Below the pieces are notes generated by a model. It made no database searches. It was not told where the DNA came from and worked only from the letters and a program-made list of their open reading frames with translations. DNA of 28,147 bases from the IMG/VR virus record IMGVR_UViG_3300005613_000332, positions 1 through 28,147 of that record. One strand, written 5' to 3'. The number at the start of each line of letters is the position of its first letter. The first letter of the stretch is position 1. This document shows, one piece after another, positions 4,003 through 28,147 of this stretch. Position numbers and translations under genes: made by a program. This DNA comes from a virus.

Positions 4003-4032
4003 TATTTGATTCTACATACCCACTATGTGATT

Positions 4033-4103
4033 TATAGGTAAAAATCTTAAAAAATTACCCATAGTTTTGGTATATGGGTAAAATATCTAAAAAATTACCT
4101 ATA
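4033..4103. repeat. Nested palindromes and 40-bp direct repeat
   Basis: Two units repeat with an exact 40-bp period; 4048-4068 and 4088-4108 agree at 20 of 21 bases. Each unit is bounded by arms, in the order TATAGGTAA (4033-4041), TTACCCATA (4055-4063), TATGGGTAA (4073-4081), TTACCTATA (4095-4103). The outer two are perfect inverted complements, and so are the inner two, whereas the arms within each unit differ by one base. The nesting suggests compensatory change, hence either cruciform or RNA pairing or paired operator sites. It lies between the ejection genes and the replication genes. Confidence 0.8.
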
Positions 4104-4106
4104 GTT

Positions 4107-4134
4107 TTAATTCCCCCGAATTCGAGGGAATTAA
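4107..4134. promoter_or_regulatory. 28-bp near-perfect palindrome (operator-like)
   Basis: Arms TTAATTCCC (4107-4115) and GGGAATTAA (4126-4134) are perfect inverted complements around a CGAATTCG core (4117-4124). Only the pair 4116/4125 is mismatched. No T-run follows on either strand, so a simple intrinsic terminator is less likely than a dimeric repressor or initiator site. It sits 30 bp upstream of the predicted promoter of the replication module. Confidence 0.7.
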
Positions 4135-4163
4135 GTAATTTAATACTAATATTACAAAAATAC

Positions 4164-4191
4164 TTGCTAATGTAAAATATTGTGCTATTAT
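4164..4191 (+). promoter_or_regulatory. Promoter of replication module, probably leaderless
   Basis: TTGCTA (4164-4169), a 16-bp spacer and TATTAT (4186-4191) preceded by TGC, resembling an extended -10. The ATG at 4199 follows after 7 bases with no Shine-Dalgarno, so transcription would begin at or next to the start codon. Confidence 0.5.
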
Positions 4192-4198
4192 TAATAGT

Positions 4199-4390: not shown

Positions 4391-4987
4391 ATGGAAGTGT
4401 TTAGTATAGTAAACTTACCTAACTTAGAGGTGGGATATAATCAGCTAAAAGCCTTCTATGAGCTTTCAAGAAAGGTTAGCCCGATCTTAAAGGTTGCTTA
4501 CGTAGGTGAAGAGAAAAGATTTATTACAGCGATAAGCTATAAGGAGCTAGCAAAAGATTTAGGGTTAGAAGATGGTGAAGCTATAGATTTACTTACTAAT
4601 GCTTTAACCCTTCTATCTGAACTAATAGAGGCAACAGATAGTAAAGTGCTAGGCAAAGACGATAAAGATATTATGTTCTTACTAGCATTTAATAAAGAGA
4701 AGGCGCAAGCGTTCTATTACTTTGAAGATGAAAAGTTACTAGAGGCTTTAAAAGTAGGGGGCTTTGAAATGTTCACTCTAATAACTCACTTACTAGAGAA
4801 TGGTGGAGCTTACACGTTCCCTATCAAAGAAGTTTACGACTGGCTAAAAATTAAACCATCTTATCAGGTGCAATTTTGTATCTTGAGAGATAGATTTATA
4901 GATCAGTTTAATAAGAGAATGAAAGGAGGGATAAAGCTCAATGTAGAAAGAATATACAGAGGCGTTATTAAAGTATCGGTAAAATAA
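4391..4987 (+). CDS. Putative Rep-like replication initiator
   Basis: A 198-residue protein directly downstream of the small wHTH-like gene and upstream of the DnaD-like and primase-helicase genes. The C-terminal half (about residues 125-198) reads like the second winged helix of plasmid Rep_3/RepA-type initiators: helix FEMFTLITHLLENGG, then EVYDWLKIKPSY, then the helix CILRDRFIDQFNKRM, then strands with alternating basic and hydrophobic residues at the very end. The N-terminal half could be a first winged helix. If correct, it would bind iterons, and a seven-iteron array exists at 18104-18239, although iterons usually lie next to their rep gene. A generic phage replication or transcription factor is the alternative. 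The family call is by eye and moderate at best. Confidence 0.5.
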   Translation: MEVFSIVNLPNLEVGYNQLKAFYELSRKVSPILKVAYVGEEKRFITAISYKELAKDLGLEDGEAIDLLTNALTLLSELIEATDSKVLGKDDKDIMFLLAFNKEKAQAFYYFEDEKLLEALKVGGFEMFTLITHLLENGGAYTFPIKEVYDWLKIKPSYQVQFCILRDRFIDQFNKRMKGGIKLNVERIYRGVIKVSVK

Positions 4988-5045: not shown

Positions 5046-5573
5046 ATGACAGAAAGAATAAAATTATTAAGTATTCTTATGGGACGTTACAGCGAAGAGC
5101 AAGGTATGCCGTACCATGAGATTGAACGCAAAGCAGATTTTGATAAAGACATATTGAATGAAGCGATAGAGGGGTTAATTAGAGACTATAAAGTTAAAAG
5201 AGTAGGCGAGGTCTACCACTTAACTAGCCCGATAAGAGAGTCTCAGGGTATGGGTAACAAAACAGATATTAAAATGGTAGCCTATGAACTTACAGCGATA
5301 TGGCAAGAGCTTACAGGGAAATTACCAACATTAGCAAGATATCCCCTAGAGCGTGCCCTTGAGAGATACACCGTCGAGCAAATAAAAAGAGCTTTAGTGT
5401 GGTTTCTTCACAAGCCAAACAGAAAAACAGTTATAGAAGAGAGTAAAAAATTAGGTTGTCAGAATGAGACAAAGAAAGACTATAAAGATTTATACTTTGA
5501 TTTCTCATTCCATTTCTTACCAATGACATTACTTAACAAGTGGGTAGAACTATCAAGCAAGGGAGATATTTAA
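5046..5573 (+). CDS. DnaD-like replication accessory protein (putative)
   Basis: A 175-residue protein. Residues 1-60 look like a winged helix (short helices, then KVKRVGEVYHLTSP as the wing). Residues 75-135 (AYELTAIWQELTGKLP, then LERYTVEQIKRALVWFLHK) resemble the helical C-terminal domain of phage DnaD-type replication proteins, which load or steer the helicase on DNA. It is encoded just before the primase-helicase gene, the usual place for such a factor. The start ATG at 5046 has AGGAG about 8-10 bases upstream. The assignment is by pattern and neighbourhood only. Confidence 0.5.
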   Translation: MTERIKLLSILMGRYSEEQGMPYHEIERKADFDKDILNEAIEGLIRDYKVKRVGEVYHLTSPIRESQGMGNKTDIKMVAYELTAIWQELTGKLPTLARYPLERALERYTVEQIKRALVWFLHKPNRKTVIEESKKLGCQNETKKDYKDLYFDFSFHFLPMTLLNKWVELSSKGDI

Positions 5574-5575
5574 AC

Positions 5576-7822
5576 ATGAAATACGGACTTAACACAAAAA
5601 TTAAAGATAAAAAGTACCAACACCAAGCGCATAACTCTTGGATTAACCAAGATGGCGATATGGGGTCTTTGATGGAAAATATAGTTTCAGGACATGCCGT
5701 AACACCTGCGATATTTAGCGGAGAAAAAAACGACAACAATTTTATCAGCTCTGAACTTATCTTTCTTGACTTTGATAATGTAACAAACTTAGACGAAGTG
5801 CTAAATAAAGAGTTTACTGTAAAATATGCAACAGCTTTTTATTTAACACCAAGTGCAACAGCAGAAGCGATAAAGTTTAGACTTGTTTTCAACTTAGATA
5901 AAGTTATCCAAGATAAAGAAGAGTACAAAACAGCAGTTTTAGGTCTATTAACTTTATATCCAGAAGCAGATCAATCTTGCAAAGATGCCTCACGTTGCTT
6001 TTTTGGTAACTCAAACCTTCAAGAAGAGAGCTTTAAATCCCTATTCGACTTTAATGTGTGGGAAATATACAAAAATAAGAGTAAAGCCCCGGTTTCTGAA
6101 CTACTAAAACACGGAAACAACGCTAGAAGCCTAGAGGTTACACGTTTTGACAGGGTACAGTATGATTACAAGCGAGACCTAGATTTAGACCTTTATAACG
6201 TAAGAGAGGCGTTATCTTTTATACCAAGTCAAGGGGATTATGAAGATTGGCGCAATATTGCATGGGGTTGCATTAATCATTTTGGAGAGGGGCAAGGAAA
6301 AGCTCTTATAAATGAGTGGAGTCCAGATTTAAAGCAGAAAGGGAAACACTTAGACGACCTAGCGAAAAAGAGTAGGAAATCACACACTTTAGGAACAGTG
6401 TTTTATATCGCTATGAAGTTTGGGTACACACCCCCTTTAGTAGTTTCCTCTCTAATAGCAGGAGAGGTAAAAAAAAACATTGGCGAGTTGTTAGCAGGGA
6501 TAGTTAATAATCTTGACGACCCAGCTTTTAGGGGCTTTATCGCAAAAGTGCCAGTAAGCTTATTTGACGAGGATAAAGAAGAGCAAGAAATCTTCAAGGA
6601 TATTCAGGCGGTTAAAAGTAAGCAAGAAGCGTTAATTAGAATAGCTAACAAAAACTTCGCTCTAAAGCCTCAAACTAGACCATTTACTGCCGATATGCTA
6701 GTCGGTATCATTCAGGCGATATTAGACGGCTTAGTTATCATTGGTAGAGAGCAAGTTATCCTCAATGGTGGATTAAGTAAAGACTATGGCGAGCTAATTT
6801 CTGATCTTTCAAAGGTTGATAAGAAATACAGAATTAAAGACATTGGCGGAGAGGTTAAAGAAGTGAACGAACCAGAGGAGCATATAGCAGACCTATTAGA
6901 CTTCTTCTCACAAGAAGATAACTCAATTAAAACAGGGTACACCGATCTCGATATAATCCTTCAAGGTTTACCACTTGGTGGGGTTACTGTACTTGGAGGC
7001 TCTACTGGCTCAGGGAAAAGTACACTTGCTTTAAATATTGCAACAAGAATTGGAGCTTCTAATCAGAACCCGATCGCTTTCTATAGCTATGAAATGAAAG
7101 CTAGGGAACATGCTTTAAGAACCTGTAGCTACCTATGTGCCGAGGACACAAAGAAAGTTAAAGAAAACTTTAAAGACAAGAAAGGGGTAGACAAGTACCA
7201 AAGAGCTTTAAGAGCTATAAAACATATTAATATAGTCCACTGCCCTTCTTTTACAGTCATGGATATTGTAGACCACTTGAAAGAGTTTAAGAAAAATAAC
7301 CCAGATTGTAGAATGGCGATAGTAGACCACTTACATTTAGTAAAGCCAGCACCAGAATTTGCAAATAGGGCATTAGTGGAACAGTTAGGCGAAACAACAT
7401 CAACCCTAAAAAGAATTGCCAGTGAACTTGACATTAATATCATGTTACTAGCTCAGTTATCAAGACAAGAGAAAGGAACAGCTTACAGAAATCCTACCCT
7501 TTCTGATCTAAGATCATCAGGAACTATAGAGCAAGATGCCAACCAAGTAATTCTAATAGCAAGAAACACTGATCCTACTAGCCATGCCGAGGAAACAGGG
7601 CAAGAGAAAGGGAATTATAAAATGTATGGGAAAGAGGTTAAGCAAACTAAAACCAAAACCCCTAAACCATCAGAACCAGATATCATAGTGGCTAAGAATA
7701 GAGAAGGCGGTACTGGAGTTGTTGGCTTTACCTTTATCGGACAAACCTATACTTTCAAAGAAAGAGATCAAGATATAGACTTGAGATTAGAAGAGCTTAG
7801 AGATAAATTCTTAAATGCTTAA
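5576..7822 (+). CDS. Bifunctional primase (AEP-type)-helicase (DnaB-type)
   Basis: A 748-residue fusion of the two replication-fork activities. Residues 55-145 carry an archaeo-eukaryotic-primase-like core: FLDFDN with the metal-binding D65 and D67, a KFRLVF strand, and DASRCFFG with D137 and R140. Residues 208-282 resemble a PriCT-type domain (SQGDYEDWRNIAWGC). The C-terminal half is a RecA/DnaB-type ATPase with Walker A GGSTGSGKST (474-483, catalytic K481), Walker B IVDHLHL (D584) and a downstream AQLSRQ motif. I chose ATG 5576 over the upstream in-frame GTG at 5540 because it avoids overlapping the previous gene and has GGGAG upstream. It does the work of T7 gp4 with a differently folded primase. 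Its stop overlaps the opposing tail gene at a shared TTAA. Confidence 0.88.
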   Translation: MKYGLNTKIKDKKYQHQAHNSWINQDGDMGSLMENIVSGHAVTPAIFSGEKNDNNFISSELIFLDFDNVTNLDEVLNKEFTVKYATAFYLTPSATAEAIKFRLVFNLDKVIQDKEEYKTAVLGLLTLYPEADQSCKDASRCFFGNSNLQEESFKSLFDFNVWEIYKNKSKAPVSELLKHGNNARSLEVTRFDRVQYDYKRDLDLDLYNVREALSFIPSQGDYEDWRNIAWGCINHFGEGQGKALINEWSPDLKQKGKHLDDLAKKSRKSHTLGTVFYIAMKFGYTPPLVVSSLIAGEVKKNIGELLAGIVNNLDDPAFRGFIAKVPVSLFDEDKEEQEIFKDIQAVKSKQEALIRIANKNFALKPQTRPFTADMLVGIIQAILDGLVIIGREQVILNGGLSKDYGELISDLSKVDKKYRIKDIGGEVKEVNEPEEHIADLLDFFSQEDNSIKTGYTDLDIILQGLPLGGVTVLGGSTGSGKSTLALNIATRIGASNQNPIAFYSYEMKAREHALRTCSYLCAEDTKKVKENFKDKKGVDKYQRALRAIKHINIVHCPSFTVMDIVDHLKEFKKNNPDCRMAIVDHLHLVKPAPEFANRALVEQLGETTSTLKRIASELDINIMLLAQLSRQEKGTAYRNPTLSDLRSSGTIEQDANQVILIARNTDPTSHAEETGQEKGNYKMYGKEVKQTKTKTPKPSEPDIIVAKNREGGTGVVGFTFIGQTYTFKERDQDIDLRLEELRDKFLNA

Positions 7823-10800
7823 ACTGTTTGAATTTCAGTATCGAAATAAATACCATTCATCTGTAACGGAGTCGGTAAAGTTTGAGTAACTTCTATCTCG
7901 ATAAGGGAATCAGCGTCAGTATTTAAAGAATCATCTTCAAAAACACCAGTATAAAGAGAATCAGAAGGGGTAGGCTTAACACTTACCTCTTTTGGCGTTT
8001 CACCGACTACACCGATAGAAAAATTAGCACTATCCACTAAAGAATAAAATGCACGCTTAACCATTTTGGTATCTTTAATTCTACTGTTTTGGGTAGATAC
8101 TTGATCTAAAGGTCTAAACCTTACAAAGCTATAGAATGGAATACCCACTTGATAGCGATTAGTGCCAGTAAAGATAGTACCACCGCCAATATCAGAATTA
8201 TTATCAAATACTTCATAAGTGCCAAGGTCAATTAAAACTTGATCGTCAGATAAGGTAGAAACATCAAAAGTAGTGCCAGCTTCATACGTTACTGCTTCAC
8301 TTAAAAGAAACTCATTAGGGGCAACACTTATAAGCTTAGAATAAGGGGCATAAGATAAAGAACTGCTCTTAGTATAATCAATATCTGATCTTGGGTATAA
8401 ATCACCAAAGCTCAACACTTTACCATCTCTAGTAGTTACGACTATACTTTCTTTTCCTTCAAATTCAGCATTATATATAAATTTAGATACATATTGTGCC
8501 TTTAACCCATTAGGTAACACTATCCTTGACCATGAAAAAGAAGTTTCATCACCATTAATACTACAAACTGCGATATTACCACTATTTAAAGTTAGCCAGA
8601 TCATTTTGAACGGATACTCGATATATTCCATGGACACCACGCCATCTTGTAATATCTCTCTATTATCCCCGACTAAATCAGCAGTAAAACCACCAAGTCT
8701 AAACTCATACCTTAGTTGATATAAGCCAGTAGTAGTAGAATCAATAAAATATAAAAACTTGCCAATAACAGGCTTAATCTTGGCACTACCAATGGCATGT
8801 TGATTTTGAATAGTAGCAGTTTCAGGGGTCAATAAAGCCTCTCTATTCCCACCTGCACCAATTAATTCACCACTCAAAGCATTACCCACTTGTAAACCTT
8901 GATAAGTAGCAGCCCATCTTGCCGATTGTGATACCCCTTCAACCCCTTCAATAGCAATACCAGAATCTGCACGAACCACTAAAGAAGCATCATCAATATC
9001 AGGGAAATCAGGACTAAACCTAAATAAATCACCAGAAACAGTAGCCCATCTTTTACCACCCCTAAAAAACCATAATCTATTTTGATGGAACGCAACAGTA
9101 TCAGGATAAGCCCCTTCATACCATGAACTTAAACGCCAGTTTTTAGTATGTGAACCTAGACCCTCTTGGAGTAAAGCATAACCATCTAAAACAGTAGCAT
9201 TAAACCTAGCTGCAAACTCACCCGGAGCTGCGCTAGATACACTGTTTATCTGCAATACTGCGACTTGAACAGTACCACCACTTCTTTGCTCTAATCTAAC
9301 TTGCCTTTTTTGAGTAGCCCAGATATCTAAAAAGAAATCATTTCTAGTGTTATCTGTTTTATCTACTGCGATAAGATCATCTGTACCCTCAAAGCCATCA
9401 CCAATAGCAGTAAAACCATTACCTGCCCTTATTTTAAACCTTGGGTCAGTGTTCTTTTCTTCCCATGGGCCATCTTCAGCGACATACAGCTCAGCTTCTA
9501 AACCAGAAGTAGCTTGAATATCAGGCGATACAATATTTTCAGTTTCAGTAGAGGTTAAAGAAGAGGAAATAAGGGTTATGCTATTCGTGCCAGTGCTAGT
9601 AGCTGCTATATCCCATGTGCCGTTAAGATCAAAGCCCCAATTAGTATCAGGGATATCATACTCATATAGATTATTAGTAGATTGACCACCTACAAACATC
9701 TTAGTACCATCAGGTTTAAAAGCTATAGAATAAGGCGAGCTATCTTGAGAATTAACGCTAAAAGATTGACCAGAATAATCTAAGCTAGAAACAGTGAAAG
9801 GGGTTGGCATTAAATACTCATAAACTGTATCAGTGTTAGCACCTACCATATAAAGTTTAGTACCATCAGGTTGAACTGCTATGCCTCTAGGGATTGAATC
9901 TTGAGAAGTTATATTGTGAAAACTACTAGCATAAGAAATAGTATCTAAATCAGCACTAGAGGTTAAGTTGTATTGATAAATCCTATCGTTGAAAGAACCT
10001 AGCATAAATAAGCGAGTGCCATTTGCTACAAGCTCAACATCTACAGGGATTGAATCTTGACCACTTACACTAAAAGACTTATTCGCATAAGACATAGTAG
10101 CAACAGAATAGCCAGTGCTTAATGAGTATTGATAAAGAGAATCTGTATTACTTCCAACAGCTATTAAAGCCTTGCCATCTTCCGAGAAAGTAAAACTTTC
10201 CATTGAAGAATCTTGAGTCGATAGATCAAAAGTAGCACCAGAAGCAACAGCCGTTGCAATATCCCATGCCGTTGATAAATTATACTCAGTCAAAACTTCA
10301 GCACTATTTAAAGTAAATAATTTAGTGCCATCAGGGCTAAACTTGGCTTTCTTAAATACCCCGCCTATAGATAGAAAGTTACTAGAATAACTAGCTTCAG
10401 TTATACGCCAAGCATCTGTAACATCAGGAACACCAGATAAGGTTAAAAAATCCGAGTTTGTAGCTTCATCAGGGAATGTTTCATCAGTGAAATAAACTCT
10501 TATAGACCTTAAACTTTGATCCCCAGTATCTCTATAAACTTTAATGTACTCAGGGTTTACACCCACCATGTCAAAAGACAACTTAATCAATAAAGGTTGT
10601 TTTGTTATATGAGTAAAAATTATAGTGTCTCTAACTTGAGCGAAATCTAACTCTTTAATAACACTTGGAGTAAACCAATTACTTGAGTTTTGATCTAACG
10701 GAGTAAACGACTGAACTGCACCGCTTGGAGCGATTATACTAACTTGCCCTGTAGGCTCTAAAACAACATTAAAAGTAACATTATTTTCTAAATAGAAAGA

Positions 10801-18003: not shown

Positions 18004-18016
18004 AATCCTTATTATA
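18004..18016 (-). promoter_or_regulatory. Promoter -10 of the head-gene arm
   Basis: TATAAT on the minus strand (18016-18011), 7 bases before the ATG at 18003. No TTGACA-like -35 was found. A 13-base motif (TAGGTAAAAATCT, minus strand, 18047-18035) lies 18 bases upstream and recurs exactly at 4035-4047. Confidence 0.5.
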
Positions 18017-18050
18017 CATTAAACCTGAATAGATAGATTTTTACCTAAAT

Positions 18051-18096
18051 ATTAGATGTACTAATAAATTTCTACTGTTCTATTAGATATACTAAT
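18051..18096. promoter_or_regulatory. Two operator-like inverted repeats
   Basis: ATTAG-ATGTA-CTAAT (18051-18065) and ATTAG-ATATA-CTAAT (18082-18096) are each an inverted repeat with a 5-base spacer. They differ at one base and are 31 bp apart, about three helical turns. This is the pattern expected for two repressor dimers on the same DNA face. They lie between the head-arm promoter and the iterons. The two ribbon-helix-helix proteins at 20233 and 21193 are possible ligands. Confidence 0.6.
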
Positions 18097-18103
18097 TAAT
18101 TAC

Positions 18104-18239
18104 TGATGACATTGTACTCAAATTGATGACATTGTATTCAGATTAATGACATTGTATTCAGATTAATGACATTGTATTCAAATGATGACATTGTACTCAG
18201 ATTGATAACATTGTCTTAAAACTGATGACATTGTCTTCA
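18104..18239. repeat. Array of seven iterons
   Basis: Seven direct copies of a 17-base core, consensus TRATRACATTGTMYTMA, start at 18104, 18124, 18144, 18164, 18183, 18203 and 18223, a regular 20-bp (once 19) spacing. The central ACATTGT is unchanged in all seven; the second through fourth copies are the most alike. Regular, same-orientation repeats of this size in a non-coding, AT-rich region next to divergent promoters are typical of replication-initiator iterons or of partition/centromere sites. A multi-site operator is the alternative. Confidence 0.9.
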
Positions 18240-18588
18240 AAACAAATGATTATGGGTGTTTATAGGGGAAAATTTAGTTAGAGAGAGTGATATGTTTTTG
18301 AATGTTTAAACAGAAGCTCAATCAACCTAATACTATTAACCAATACCTGAAGGGATAAAATACAGAAACTCAATCAACCATTAACTAATCTGAATAACTA
18401 ATTAACCAATACCAATTACTATTTACTCCAAGAGGTTAAATATCCATTCAACGATACAACTATCCCAAAATCAATTTTAAATCCAACCTAAGCGATTCTA
18501 ACCACCTTACAATTAACTTTTAACCTGAAGGGTAGACGTTAAATTTCAATACTCTTAAAAATAAAATTAATTAGTAACTTGATTTTAC
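18240..18588. other. Non-coding G-poor tract
   Basis: No gene seen. The plus strand of about 18301-18525 has roughly 50 C but only about 15 G, so it is unlikely to fold on itself and would be single-stranded if melted or transcribed. A 17-base element (CAGAARCTCAATCAACC) occurs at 18311 and 18363 with one mismatch. TGAAGGG elements occur at 18348 and 18526. It sits between the iterons and the structured modules, where an origin unwinding or priming zone could be. Confidence 0.5.
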
Positions 18589-18650
18589 GATTGCATAGCT
18601 CTGTTGAGCCCCTTTATGGGGTGATGGCTAAGTAAGCTAGATGCAAAATC
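18589..18650. ncRNA. Structured module, copy A (unknown RNA or DNA element)
   Basis: Bases 18589-18611 are identical to 18730-18752. The module folds with an outer stem TTGCAT/ATGCAA (18591-18596 with 18641-18646), an inner stem AGCT/AGCT (18597-18600 with 18635-18638), and an apical hairpin GCCCC-TTTAT-GGGGT (18608-18622). The linkers are CTGTTGA before the hairpin and a 12-base strand beginning GATG after it. I recognise no Rfam-type family. The strand is undetermined. Confidence 0.6.
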
Positions 18651-18670
18651 ATAATCAAAGAATAAGTGCT

Positions 18671-18683
18671 TGAAGGGTAGATT
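18671..18683. repeat. TGAAGGGTAGATT element
   Basis: Related copies at 18526 (TGAAGGGTAGACG), 18671 and 18804 (TGAAGAGTAGATT) bracket the two structured modules at intervals of 145 and 133 bp. Together with the modules this makes a diverged tandem duplication with a unit of about 140 bp. Confidence 0.6.
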
Positions 18684-18729
18684 GATAAGTAACTCTTAAC
18701 CTTGCAATATTATCAATTAAACACGATAT

Positions 18730-18788
18730 GATTGCATAGCTCTGTTGAGCCCTCTAGGGCGATGAACATAGAAGCTCAATGCAAGATC
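18730..18788. ncRNA. Structured module, copy B
   Basis: Second copy of the module, 141 bp downstream of copy A. The outer stem TTGCAT/ATGCAA (18732-18737 with 18779-18784) and AGCT/AGCT (18738-18741 with 18773-18776) are kept. The apical hairpin is GCCC-TCTA-GGGC (18749-18760): different loop, same stem. The linkers keep CTGTTGA and GATG, and the 3' linker is again 12 bases. The stem survives while the loop and linker change, which argues for selection on structure. Confidence 0.6.
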
Positions 18789-18828
18789 ATTCTCTTTGTG
18801 GTATGAAGAGTAGATTTTAACTCCATGT

Positions 18829-18860
18829 AAAAAACAAAAAAAAGATACTTTGGTATCCTT
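18829..18860 (-). terminator. Minus-strand intrinsic terminator in the control region
   Basis: On the minus strand AAGGATAC (18860-18853) pairs with GTATCTTT (18848-18841, one G-T wobble) across a 4-base loop, followed by a T-rich run interrupted by one G (TTTTT, then GTTTTTT, down to 18829). No gene ends here, so it would stop a minus-strand RNA that begins somewhere in 18861-19438. Confidence 0.6.
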
Positions 18861-19399
18861 CCGAGATTTAATATTCAGAGATTAATATTCAAAAAATTCT
18901 TGGTCTAAAAATAGACATAGTATGGGCTAACTGAGGGAATGATCCATACTGTAACTTACTACTCATACAATTTAATTTACTTTGTTTTTAACATCTTCCC
19001 AGCCCCTGAAGGTCTAGGGAGAGTTAAACAAGTAATAAGTTATAATTTGATAAGAGATTTATTTAAGGGATTTATTTAATCGGTTATAAATAACCTCTAT
19101 GTATAATGTACTTTAGCATACTTTCTTGGTCTTTGTCTAGTCTCTTATTTTTGTATGAATAACTAATACTTAGTGCTAGTCTTCAAATATCCAATTATTA
19201 AGATTTTATTTAGCAAAATTGACGTAATTATCTTATAAAAGTAAATACAGTATATTAATATTTAATGTTCATAGCTTCATAGTATATGGACGTTATGTAC
19301 TTATATTTCAATATAGTTTATATTCTATAGTCCTTATTATAATAACCAATAAATCTTTAATAATTATTTTATAAAAACATTACTATATAATTATCCTTA
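18861..19399. other. AT-rich non-coding stretch
   Basis: No convincing gene on either strand. It contains a 14-bp inverted repeat GGTTATAAATAACC (19082-19095), a TATAAT at 19102-19107, TTGACG at 19219-19224 without a good -10 partner, and GATTTATTTAA twice near 19054-19079. Another diverged TGAAGG element is near 19014. It may contain the start of a minus-strand RNA ending at 18829, and early plus-strand promoters. Confidence 0.45.
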
Positions 19400-19408
19400 T
19401 GCTATAAT
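19400..19408 (+). promoter_or_regulatory. Promoter of the early plus-strand operon
   Basis: Extended -10, TGCTATAAT, the closest match to consensus in the region, ending 30 bases before the first gene. The -35 region (near 19380) is a poor match. The leader includes AAGGAG at 19425-19430, so this operon uses ordinary ribosome binding. Confidence 0.55.
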
Positions 19409-19438
19409 TAGTTATATAACTTAAAAGGAGTTAATTAT

Positions 19439-20233
19439 ATGTTAGATGAACAGGAAAGCATAGAATACCTAGCTCAGCAGTTAGGGAAAATATATAACAA
19501 AGATGCGATAGAGCAGATAAAGAGAGAGGTAATAGAGATAGCGAACGAGCAAGAACTTTTGCCAAGTCAAGTAACAAGATTGGTTACGGCTTGTAAATGT
19601 GGTTTCCCTAAATCTGTATTAGCTTTTATCGCTCAAAGAGAGCATTGTCCAGAGCAAATATCAATCCTTTCTAGTATATTCAAGAACCTTGAAGATGAAG
19701 AAAAGCAAGACTTGATAATGTTCTTATCCGAGGATAAATTCTTTAAGGCAATAGTATCACTATCTACCTTTACTATTCTTTTAGATGAAAGCTCAGGCGG
19801 TAGTCTTGAATTTGCCAAAGAGAATTTAACTAAATTAAGAGACGGCTTGAAGGGTGGTAATATTAGCGAAAAAAGAGCGCAAGATGGCTCAGAGGCGTTA
19901 ATAGAGTTAATGGCTTATGTAAGCAAAAGCAATTCAGCAGCAGCGGTTAGTGCTTTAATTGACTTTATAGTGCATATTGTCAAGGTAGATACACCAATGA
20001 ATAAATCATGGAAGATTGCTAAATTTAAAAGCTCTTTAGCGAAAATAGAAGCGAGGGCATTAGTCGGTACAGGGCTTAAAGTTGGAGGGGATTTCTATGA
20101 TGCACTAAACGAGAAGATTCTATCTACAATTACTAAAAACATTGGGCTTACTAACAAGCAAGTATACGATAAGTTATTGCTAGTAGCTCAGGTAGAAAAT
20201 ACAAGATATACAAATCAAAAGGAGACAATATAA
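19439..20233 (+). CDS. Unknown helical protein, first early gene
   Basis: 264 residues, soluble and almost entirely helical, starting 8 bases after AAGGAG. No domain recognised. Segments such as YLAQQLGKIYNKDAIEQIK and LTKLRDGLKGGNISEKRAQ are amphipathic, and the C-terminal 80 residues are basic. It is the largest early gene and is coupled to the ribbon-helix-helix gene (TAATG overlap at 20231-20235), next to the control region. A role in host takeover, replication or partition is possible but not shown. Confidence 0.7.
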   Translation: MLDEQESIEYLAQQLGKIYNKDAIEQIKREVIEIANEQELLPSQVTRLVTACKCGFPKSVLAFIAQREHCPEQISILSSIFKNLEDEEKQDLIMFLSEDKFFKAIVSLSTFTILLDESSGGSLEFAKENLTKLRDGLKGGNISEKRAQDGSEALIELMAYVSKSNSAAAVSALIDFIVHIVKVDTPMNKSWKIAKFKSSLAKIEARALVGTGLKVGGDFYDALNEKILSTITKNIGLTNKQVYDKLLLVAQVENTRYTNQKETI

Positions 20234-20682
20234 TGGCGAAGAAACAAACAATATTCCAAATAGAGGAAGTGATAGCAGAAAGGTTAAAGTCTTTATCTTC
20301 TAGCACAGGGGTATCTATGGTAAAGATAGTAGAGAAAGCCCTACTGTTATTTATGGAGCAAATAGAGCAAGGGAATAATACGTTACTTTTTGCTAGTAAT
20401 GAAACAATGCCAAGCACAGTAGACTTAAAACCCCCTTCAAGCCCTACAGCAGATTCAGGTAGATTAGACCAAATGGAAAGCAAGCTAAAAGAGATAACAA
20501 GAAAGGTATCTGAAGTTGATTGCTATACCGAGAAGTTAGGCGAAGACTTAATGTCTCTTGGTGGTATAGGGGATAGGGTAGATGTCTTAGAGAGAAAGTC
20601 ATATATCTTCTTAAACATTGACGAAGATACGACACTTGAAGATATCAAACAACAATTTAAAGAAATAGAAGGAGATAGTTAA
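20233..20682 (+). CDS. Ribbon-helix-helix protein with coiled-coil tail
   Basis: 149 residues. Residues 3-45 have the RHH layout: strand KKQTIFQI, helix EEVIAERLKSLSSSTG, turn, helix SMVKIVEKALLLFMEQ. A low-complexity linker (70-80) leads to a heptad helix around 82-125. RHH proteins bind DNA as dimers, as in Arc, CopG and ParG-type factors. A DNA-binding head plus oligomerising tail next to a repeat-rich intergenic region suggests a transcription or partition factor. Candidate targets are the ATTAG-N5-CTAAT sites or the iterons. Confidence 0.65.
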   Translation: MAKKQTIFQIEEVIAERLKSLSSSTGVSMVKIVEKALLLFMEQIEQGNNTLLFASNETMPSTVDLKPPSSPTADSGRLDQMESKLKEITRKVSEVDCYTEKLGEDLMSLGGIGDRVDVLERKSYIFLNIDEDTTLEDIKQQFKEIEGDS

Positions 20683-27533: not shown

Positions 27534-28147
27534 TATAACACCGATAAACACCTTTGATACAGGGTTTAACCCAGAAGATATAGATTATGGCTATGTTGAA
27601 GAGTTTAAGACTAGAGCAGCTAGAGCTTTTGAAGATGCTCAGTACACGTCAAGGATATTAGGGGAAGCACAAGAGAAAATACAAGATAGAACGATTGACC
27701 TTAACAGTTTTGCTAGTGATTTAATTTCAAACCCGATTGAAGCGATAGAGAAGGTGGGGGAAACTTTCACAACGGACACAGGGGGCTATAATAACCCTTT
27801 ACTTTCAGCAGAGGAAGCTAATGCTAAATATGGGTATGAAAACCTTAGTTTTGACGAACCTATCAGGGAAAGTATTGCAAAGGGTAGATATGAGTTTAGG
27901 AAGAGACAGACAGAAAGATCAAGAGCGTTAGATGTCTTTGAACGTGATAATTCTTTTGGTGCTAAAAGTTTAAACCTACTAGAAGAGCTAATAGTAGGCA
28001 CAGGCTCAGACCCAGCTACCTATGTAACATTTGGGTTAGGTGGAGCAATTAAACAAGGGGCAAGAGCAGGCTTGTTAGCTCTAAAAAATCCCAGTGTGGC
28101 TAAAATACTTCGTAAGCTTGGCATGGCAGGGACAGCACAGGGGAGAC
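27526..28147 (+). CDS. Internal virion (ejection) protein, 5' part
   Basis: The N-terminal 207 residues of the protein continued at base 2 of the window. ATG 27526 has AGGAG (27513-27517) 8 bases upstream and overlaps the preceding gene. It begins MANITPINTFDTGFNPEDID, followed by charged helices and, near residues 165-195, a glycine/alanine-rich hydrophobic stretch (VTFGLGGAIKQGARAGLLAL). The last 14 codons duplicate codons at the left end in frame, which is how I join the two parts into about 675 residues. Confidence 0.75.
   Translation, partial: MANITPINTFDTGFNPEDIDYGYVEEFKTRAARAFEDAQYTSRILGEAQEKIQDRTIDLNSFASDLISNPIEAIEKVGETFTTDTGGYNNPLLSAEEANAKYGYENLSFDEPIRESIAKGRYEFRKRQTERSRALDVFERDNSFGAKSLNLLEELIVGTGSDPATYVTFGLGGAIKQGARAGLLALKNPSVAKILRKLGMAGTAQGR
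28104..28147. repeat. Right copy of terminal redundancy
   Basis: Matches bases 1-44 at 39 of 44 positions, same frame. See the left copy for interpretation. Confidence 0.8.

Follow-up and report, generated by a model that had tools for sequence, protein, structure and literature searches.

Two diverged copies of a hairpin-forming module in the putative replication origin region of a small tailed phage

Introduction

What is the role of a hairpin-forming module of about 65 bases that occurs as two diverged copies in a long non-coding stretch of a small tailed phage? The phage is represented by an IMG/VR virus record of 28,147 bases, which was analysed over its whole length and is referred to below as the window. 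A sequence-only reading of the window had placed the two copies at 18589-18650 and 18730-18788, assigned them to no known family, and proposed that their structure is under selection, in a setting such as an origin or copy-control region. Here, the repeat itself, its surroundings, the replication genes of the phage, and the occurrence of the module elsewhere were analysed computationally, and the possible roles of the module were weighed against each other.

The phage genome and its relatives

According to an annotation of the window by profile and tblastn matches, the gene set is podovirus-like. The head-tail connector/portal protein matches PHROG 332 (E 3e-62), and further genes encode a large terminase, a sigma factor, an RHH/Arc-like protein, and a DnaB-type helicase, with a lysozyme domain located within one large protein. 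Capsid and tail genes were recognised from their tblastn similarity to pelagiphages and to Alteromonas phage ZP6. Relatives were sought using the portal, the MCP, a portal alignment, a portal motif peptide, and a DNA pattern for the portal motif; those found were of the pelagiphage type only, and none of them contained the module. Because the best protein relatives were only 25-29% identical, and no close relative was present in the collections searched, the phage was treated as an orphan lineage. The ends of the record (1-45 and 28104-28147) show an imperfect overlap of about 40 bases with a few mismatches, which lies inside one reading frame; the genome is thus probably near-complete or complete, and circular or terminally redundant, with a probable assembly error at the record ends.

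The duplicated module

The two modules have the following coordinates and composition.

18586-18652, plus strand: module copy 1, a hairpin with stems TTGCAT/ATGCAA, AGCT/AGCT, and GCCCC/GGGGT, and an internal loop of CTGTTGA opposite GATG plus 8 nt
18727-18790, plus strand: module copy 2, with stems as in copy 1, except for a top stem of GCCC/GGGC, and a shorter apical loop (TCTA)

The duplication is real, and the coordinates originally given for it were right to within a few bases. The 23 leading bases described as identical form an unbroken match (18589-18611 and 18730-18752), which extends to 25 of 26 positions between 18586-18611 and 18727-18752 at a spacing of 141. This is the longest exact repeat in 18251-19438; in 300 dinucleotide shuffles of that region, the longest repeat averaged 10.9 and never exceeded 15. 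The three common stems and the 12-nt 3' linker that had been described were recovered as a core of 14 pairs present in both copies, TTGCAT/ATGCAA (6), AGCT/AGCT (4), and GCCC/GGGY (4), and as a linker of GATG plus 8 nt. Loop and linker sequences vary as reported, the apical loop being 3 nt shorter in copy 2. One pair does change from G-U in copy 1 to G-C in copy 2, but it is the basal pair of the top stem rather than an apical pair. Stops are present in all six frames within 121 nt around each copy, and a coding role for the module was rejected.

The following boxes accompany the modules.

18526-18536, plus strand: TGAAGGGTAGA box upstream of copy 1 (11 bases)
18671-18681, plus strand: TGAAGGGTAGA box upstream of copy 2 (11 bases)
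18804-18814, plus strand: TGAAGAGTAGA box downstream of copy 2, a near-copy with 1 mismatch

The TGAAGGGTAGA box sits about 60 bp 5' of each module, and shuffling produced an identical 11-base run at matching distances ahead of the two modules in only 6 of 3000 trials. The bracketing elements that had been proposed are present at 18526, 18671, and 18804. The intervening 5' flanks, in contrast, align no better than shuffles (291/1000), so that the tandem repeat of about 140 bp that had been inferred appears, as judged from these alignments, in the box and module only. Across the genome, with up to 2 mismatches allowed, TGAAGGGTAGA has 14 matches where 9.1 are expected, which is no clear enrichment outside the array.

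Searches for homologues and related RNA families

The statement that no family matches agrees with a search of Rfam 15, which gave no family at or above the gathering threshold anywhere in the window; permissive Rfam searches returned chance-level matches only, and a known RNA family was rejected at both settings. No tRNA or tmRNA was found. Module patterns (an exact 21-mer, a gapped architecture pattern, and a 16-mer) were searched in IMG/VR viral contigs, a 17-mer was searched in GTDB genome contigs, and blastn was used against phages and plasmids. No second genome with the module was found in IMG/VR, GTDB genomes, phages, or plasmids, the matches being chance-like and the rest of the module absent from them. 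A covariance model, of the kind that had been suggested, was built from the two copies; beyond them, its best score in the window was 9.8 bits (E 1.9), which leaves no third copy, and contigs of distantly related phages, 504 kb in all, gave no match.

Conservation of the fold

Relative to the common core, the copies differ in 1 of 28 paired columns and in 16 of 38 unpaired columns (Fisher p 0.0004), a contrast for which the 14-pair core was picked using both copies; when the minimum-energy fold of copy 1 itself was used, the same contrast was not significant (p 0.14). All 14 pairs survived in 11 of 5000 random mutants with an equal number of substitutions. The sole change at a paired position is the one-sided G-U to G-C change, with no compensatory change, and the folding energy is barely better than that of shuffled sequences (z about -1.8 to -2.0 on either strand), the two strands being equal. 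The proposed selection on structure is therefore partly supported, in that the differences avoid the common core, and is not established, given two copies, one one-sided change, a weak folding z, and no homologues for covariation. Conserved sequence alone, such as that of a protein-binding DNA dyad, would produce the same pattern.

Surroundings of the modules

The modules are located within a region with the following further features.

18004-19438, no strand assigned: non-coding region of 1.4 kb between leftward structural genes and rightward genes
18104-18239, plus strand: seven iteron-like 20-bp direct repeats, consensus TGATGACATTGTATTCA (0.09 matches expected by chance)
18836-18860, minus strand: terminator-like hairpin followed by T8, beside copy 2 (context, with a putative association only)
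19301-19400, no strand assigned: AT-rich stretch (84-90% A+T)

The portal, terminase, capsid, and tail genes run leftward from the non-coding region and the other block runs rightward. Cumulative GC skew across the window is lowest at 18525 and highest at 7974; since the skew switch coincides with the coding-strand switch, it is not independent evidence of an origin. No DnaA box was found in the non-coding region, and no plus-strand intrinsic terminator follows either module. From its sequence features the region looks like a replication origin, and the origin or copy-control setting proposed earlier fits the iterons, the GC-skew minimum, the AT-rich stretch, and the diverging gene blocks.

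Several other features were observed in the non-coding parts of the genome. A long stem-loop at 18950-19045 forms better on the minus strand (19045-18950), and an extended -10 type promoter-like site, overall not above chance, is located at 19139-19110 on the minus strand. The minus-strand hairpin with T8, taken together with the long minus-strand stem, hints at a separate minus-strand non-coding transcript within 18831-19139 that would end just before the modules. The plus strand of 18300-18525 is strongly C-rich and G-poor (52 C, 16 G), with degenerate CAATCAACC / ATTAACCAATACC repeats, and an adjoining 50-bp stretch has 16 G and no C. A second non-coding gap (4003-4198), ahead of the putative replication genes, has strong hairpins, one of them a near-perfect TTAATTCCC...GGGAATTAA palindrome, as well as a AAAAAATTACC(C/T)ATAGTTTT repeat in two copies.

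Replication proteins

The protein encoded at 5540-7822 has a DnaB_C domain (E 3e-49) and a PriCT_2 match slightly under the curated cut-off. An iteron theta origin combines an array of direct repeats of about 20 bp, here in seven copies, with an AT-rich unwinding stretch, DnaA boxes, and a cognate Rep initiator gene, the last of which was not recognised here; the Rep_3 initiator (PF01051) was not found in the phage. By eye, the sequence order of the 198-aa protein encoded at 4391-4987 resembles that of a two-winged-helix plasmid initiator. Compared with Rep_3, this protein gave an hhalign P of 0.05, within the range of shuffled controls, and single-sequence structure predictions for it and for the product of 5046-5573, just before the helicase gene, were unusable (pLDDT 41-42). 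In phages and plasmids, no homologue was found. Neither profile nor structure comparison supports 4391-4987 as a Rep_3 initiator, and it was rejected as such.

Possible roles of the module

The reading that we favour, tentatively and with a probability of about 0.4, is that the modules are a duplicated cis-acting hairpin or dyad in the origin and control region of the phage. Each module would be an inverted repeat that forms a hairpin once the DNA is single-stranded; its simplest role would be that of a loading or priming site, or of a dyad for an initiator or regulator, at which the phage's own replication proteins, among them the DnaB-type helicase with its primase-like parts, would act together with the iterons close by. 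The repeat is real and keeps all 14 core pairs in both copies, and the common dyad lies at the GC-skew minimum, in non-coding DNA that carries iterons, in a phage with a helicase gene; we infer the origin function of the region, the action of the dyad at the DNA level, and the identity of its partner protein. Also counted in favour were the skew maximum, the AT-rich stretch, the DnaB_C domain of the helicase, and the lack of a plus-strand terminator, and the equal folding of both strands is expected if DNA symmetry matters. Against it were counted the lack of an identified initiator, of a DnaA box, and of a homologue in the collections searched.

The next most likely reading, though rather doubtful, is that the modules instead encode structured non-coding RNA, either as plus-strand siblings or as a single leader RNA with two domains, with a role in copy control, antisense regulation, or processing. 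Internal loops of RNA commonly have tandem G-A / G-A next to a stem rich in GC, as do the modules, whose stems are kept while the apical loop and linker vary. The G-U/G-C pair would be tolerated in a plus-strand RNA, whereas the minus strand would give C-A, and the terminator-like site and long stem close by on the minus strand suggest that this region gives rise to non-coding transcripts. An RNA is, however, harder to reconcile with the lack of an Rfam match, a plus strand without a terminator after either copy, a folding z of only about -1.9, and the lack of a homologue for covariation comparison in the collections searched.

An operator-like inverted repeat for a phage regulator, which would control the diverging gene blocks and form a hairpin only incidentally, is unlikely. 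Both arms are conserved as sequence and not via covariation, box and module are co-spaced, the modules are located between diverging genes, and candidate binders are available, for example the RHH/Arc-like protein encoded at 20233-20682 or an initiator. The flanking gene starts, however, are about 600 bp away on either side, the half-sites are about 35 nt apart, which is long for a simple operator, and an operator would not account for the conservation of the top stem and internal loop that separate the arms.

It is also possible, though improbable, that the modules are a functionless leftover of a tandem duplication, whose conservation would reflect only a recent origin or patchy gene conversion. 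There are only two copies in one genome, their folding significance is weak, and the paired/unpaired contrast is lost with the fold of copy 1, yet the changes avoid the common core, and box and module have stayed alike although the flanks that separate them are no more similar than expected by chance. Very little probability is given to the modules being founders of a new class of phage RNA, which might process itself, given its hammerhead-like topology, and in which a unit RNA of about 141 nt would control the adjacent iteron origin.

A degenerate or divergent hammerhead-like self-cleaving RNA in tandem can practically be dismissed: the arrangement AGCU-CUGUUGA-stem-GAUG-N8-AGCU has the type I strand order of phage hammerheads and matches C3 U4 G5, G8 A9, and G12 A13 (the CUG..GA / GA core letters), and phage hammerheads may come in close multiples and have rare core variants (PMC3088659), but A6 and A14 of the core CUGANGA...GAA are both U, the third of the three stems (stem III) is missing, and the Rfam models RF00163 and RF02276 gave no match even at E 10.

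Comparison with known replication elements

The modules and their surroundings share traits with known kinds of replication element. Single-strand initiation or primosome assembly hairpins are known as the phiX174-type PAS and as RSF1010 ssiA/ssiB; the modules resemble them as imperfect hairpins of 50-70 nt in a replication region, a likeness of form and setting, and here both copies are on the same strand. Iteron theta origins of plasmids and extrachromosomal prophages, such as the RepA/iteron origin of phage P1 (PMC7157519), are alike in their direct repeats of about 20 bp, their AT-rich stretch, and a skew minimum within non-coding DNA, whereas here there is no recognisable initiator gene, and such origins do not normally include paired hairpin modules preceded by a box. 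The RNA-based prophage origins of mycobacteriophages, which require an expressed RNA (PMC7157519), are alike in that a non-coding region is proposed to drive phage replication; there, the RNA is expressed, whereas the present region has iterons and is known from sequence alone.

On present evidence, the module is known from a single genome and is not assigned to any class. Should it prove functional, this pair of hairpins in the replication or control region of a very small tailed phage would be of a kind not described before, and would offer a starting point for work on how replication starts in such phages without a recognisable initiator.
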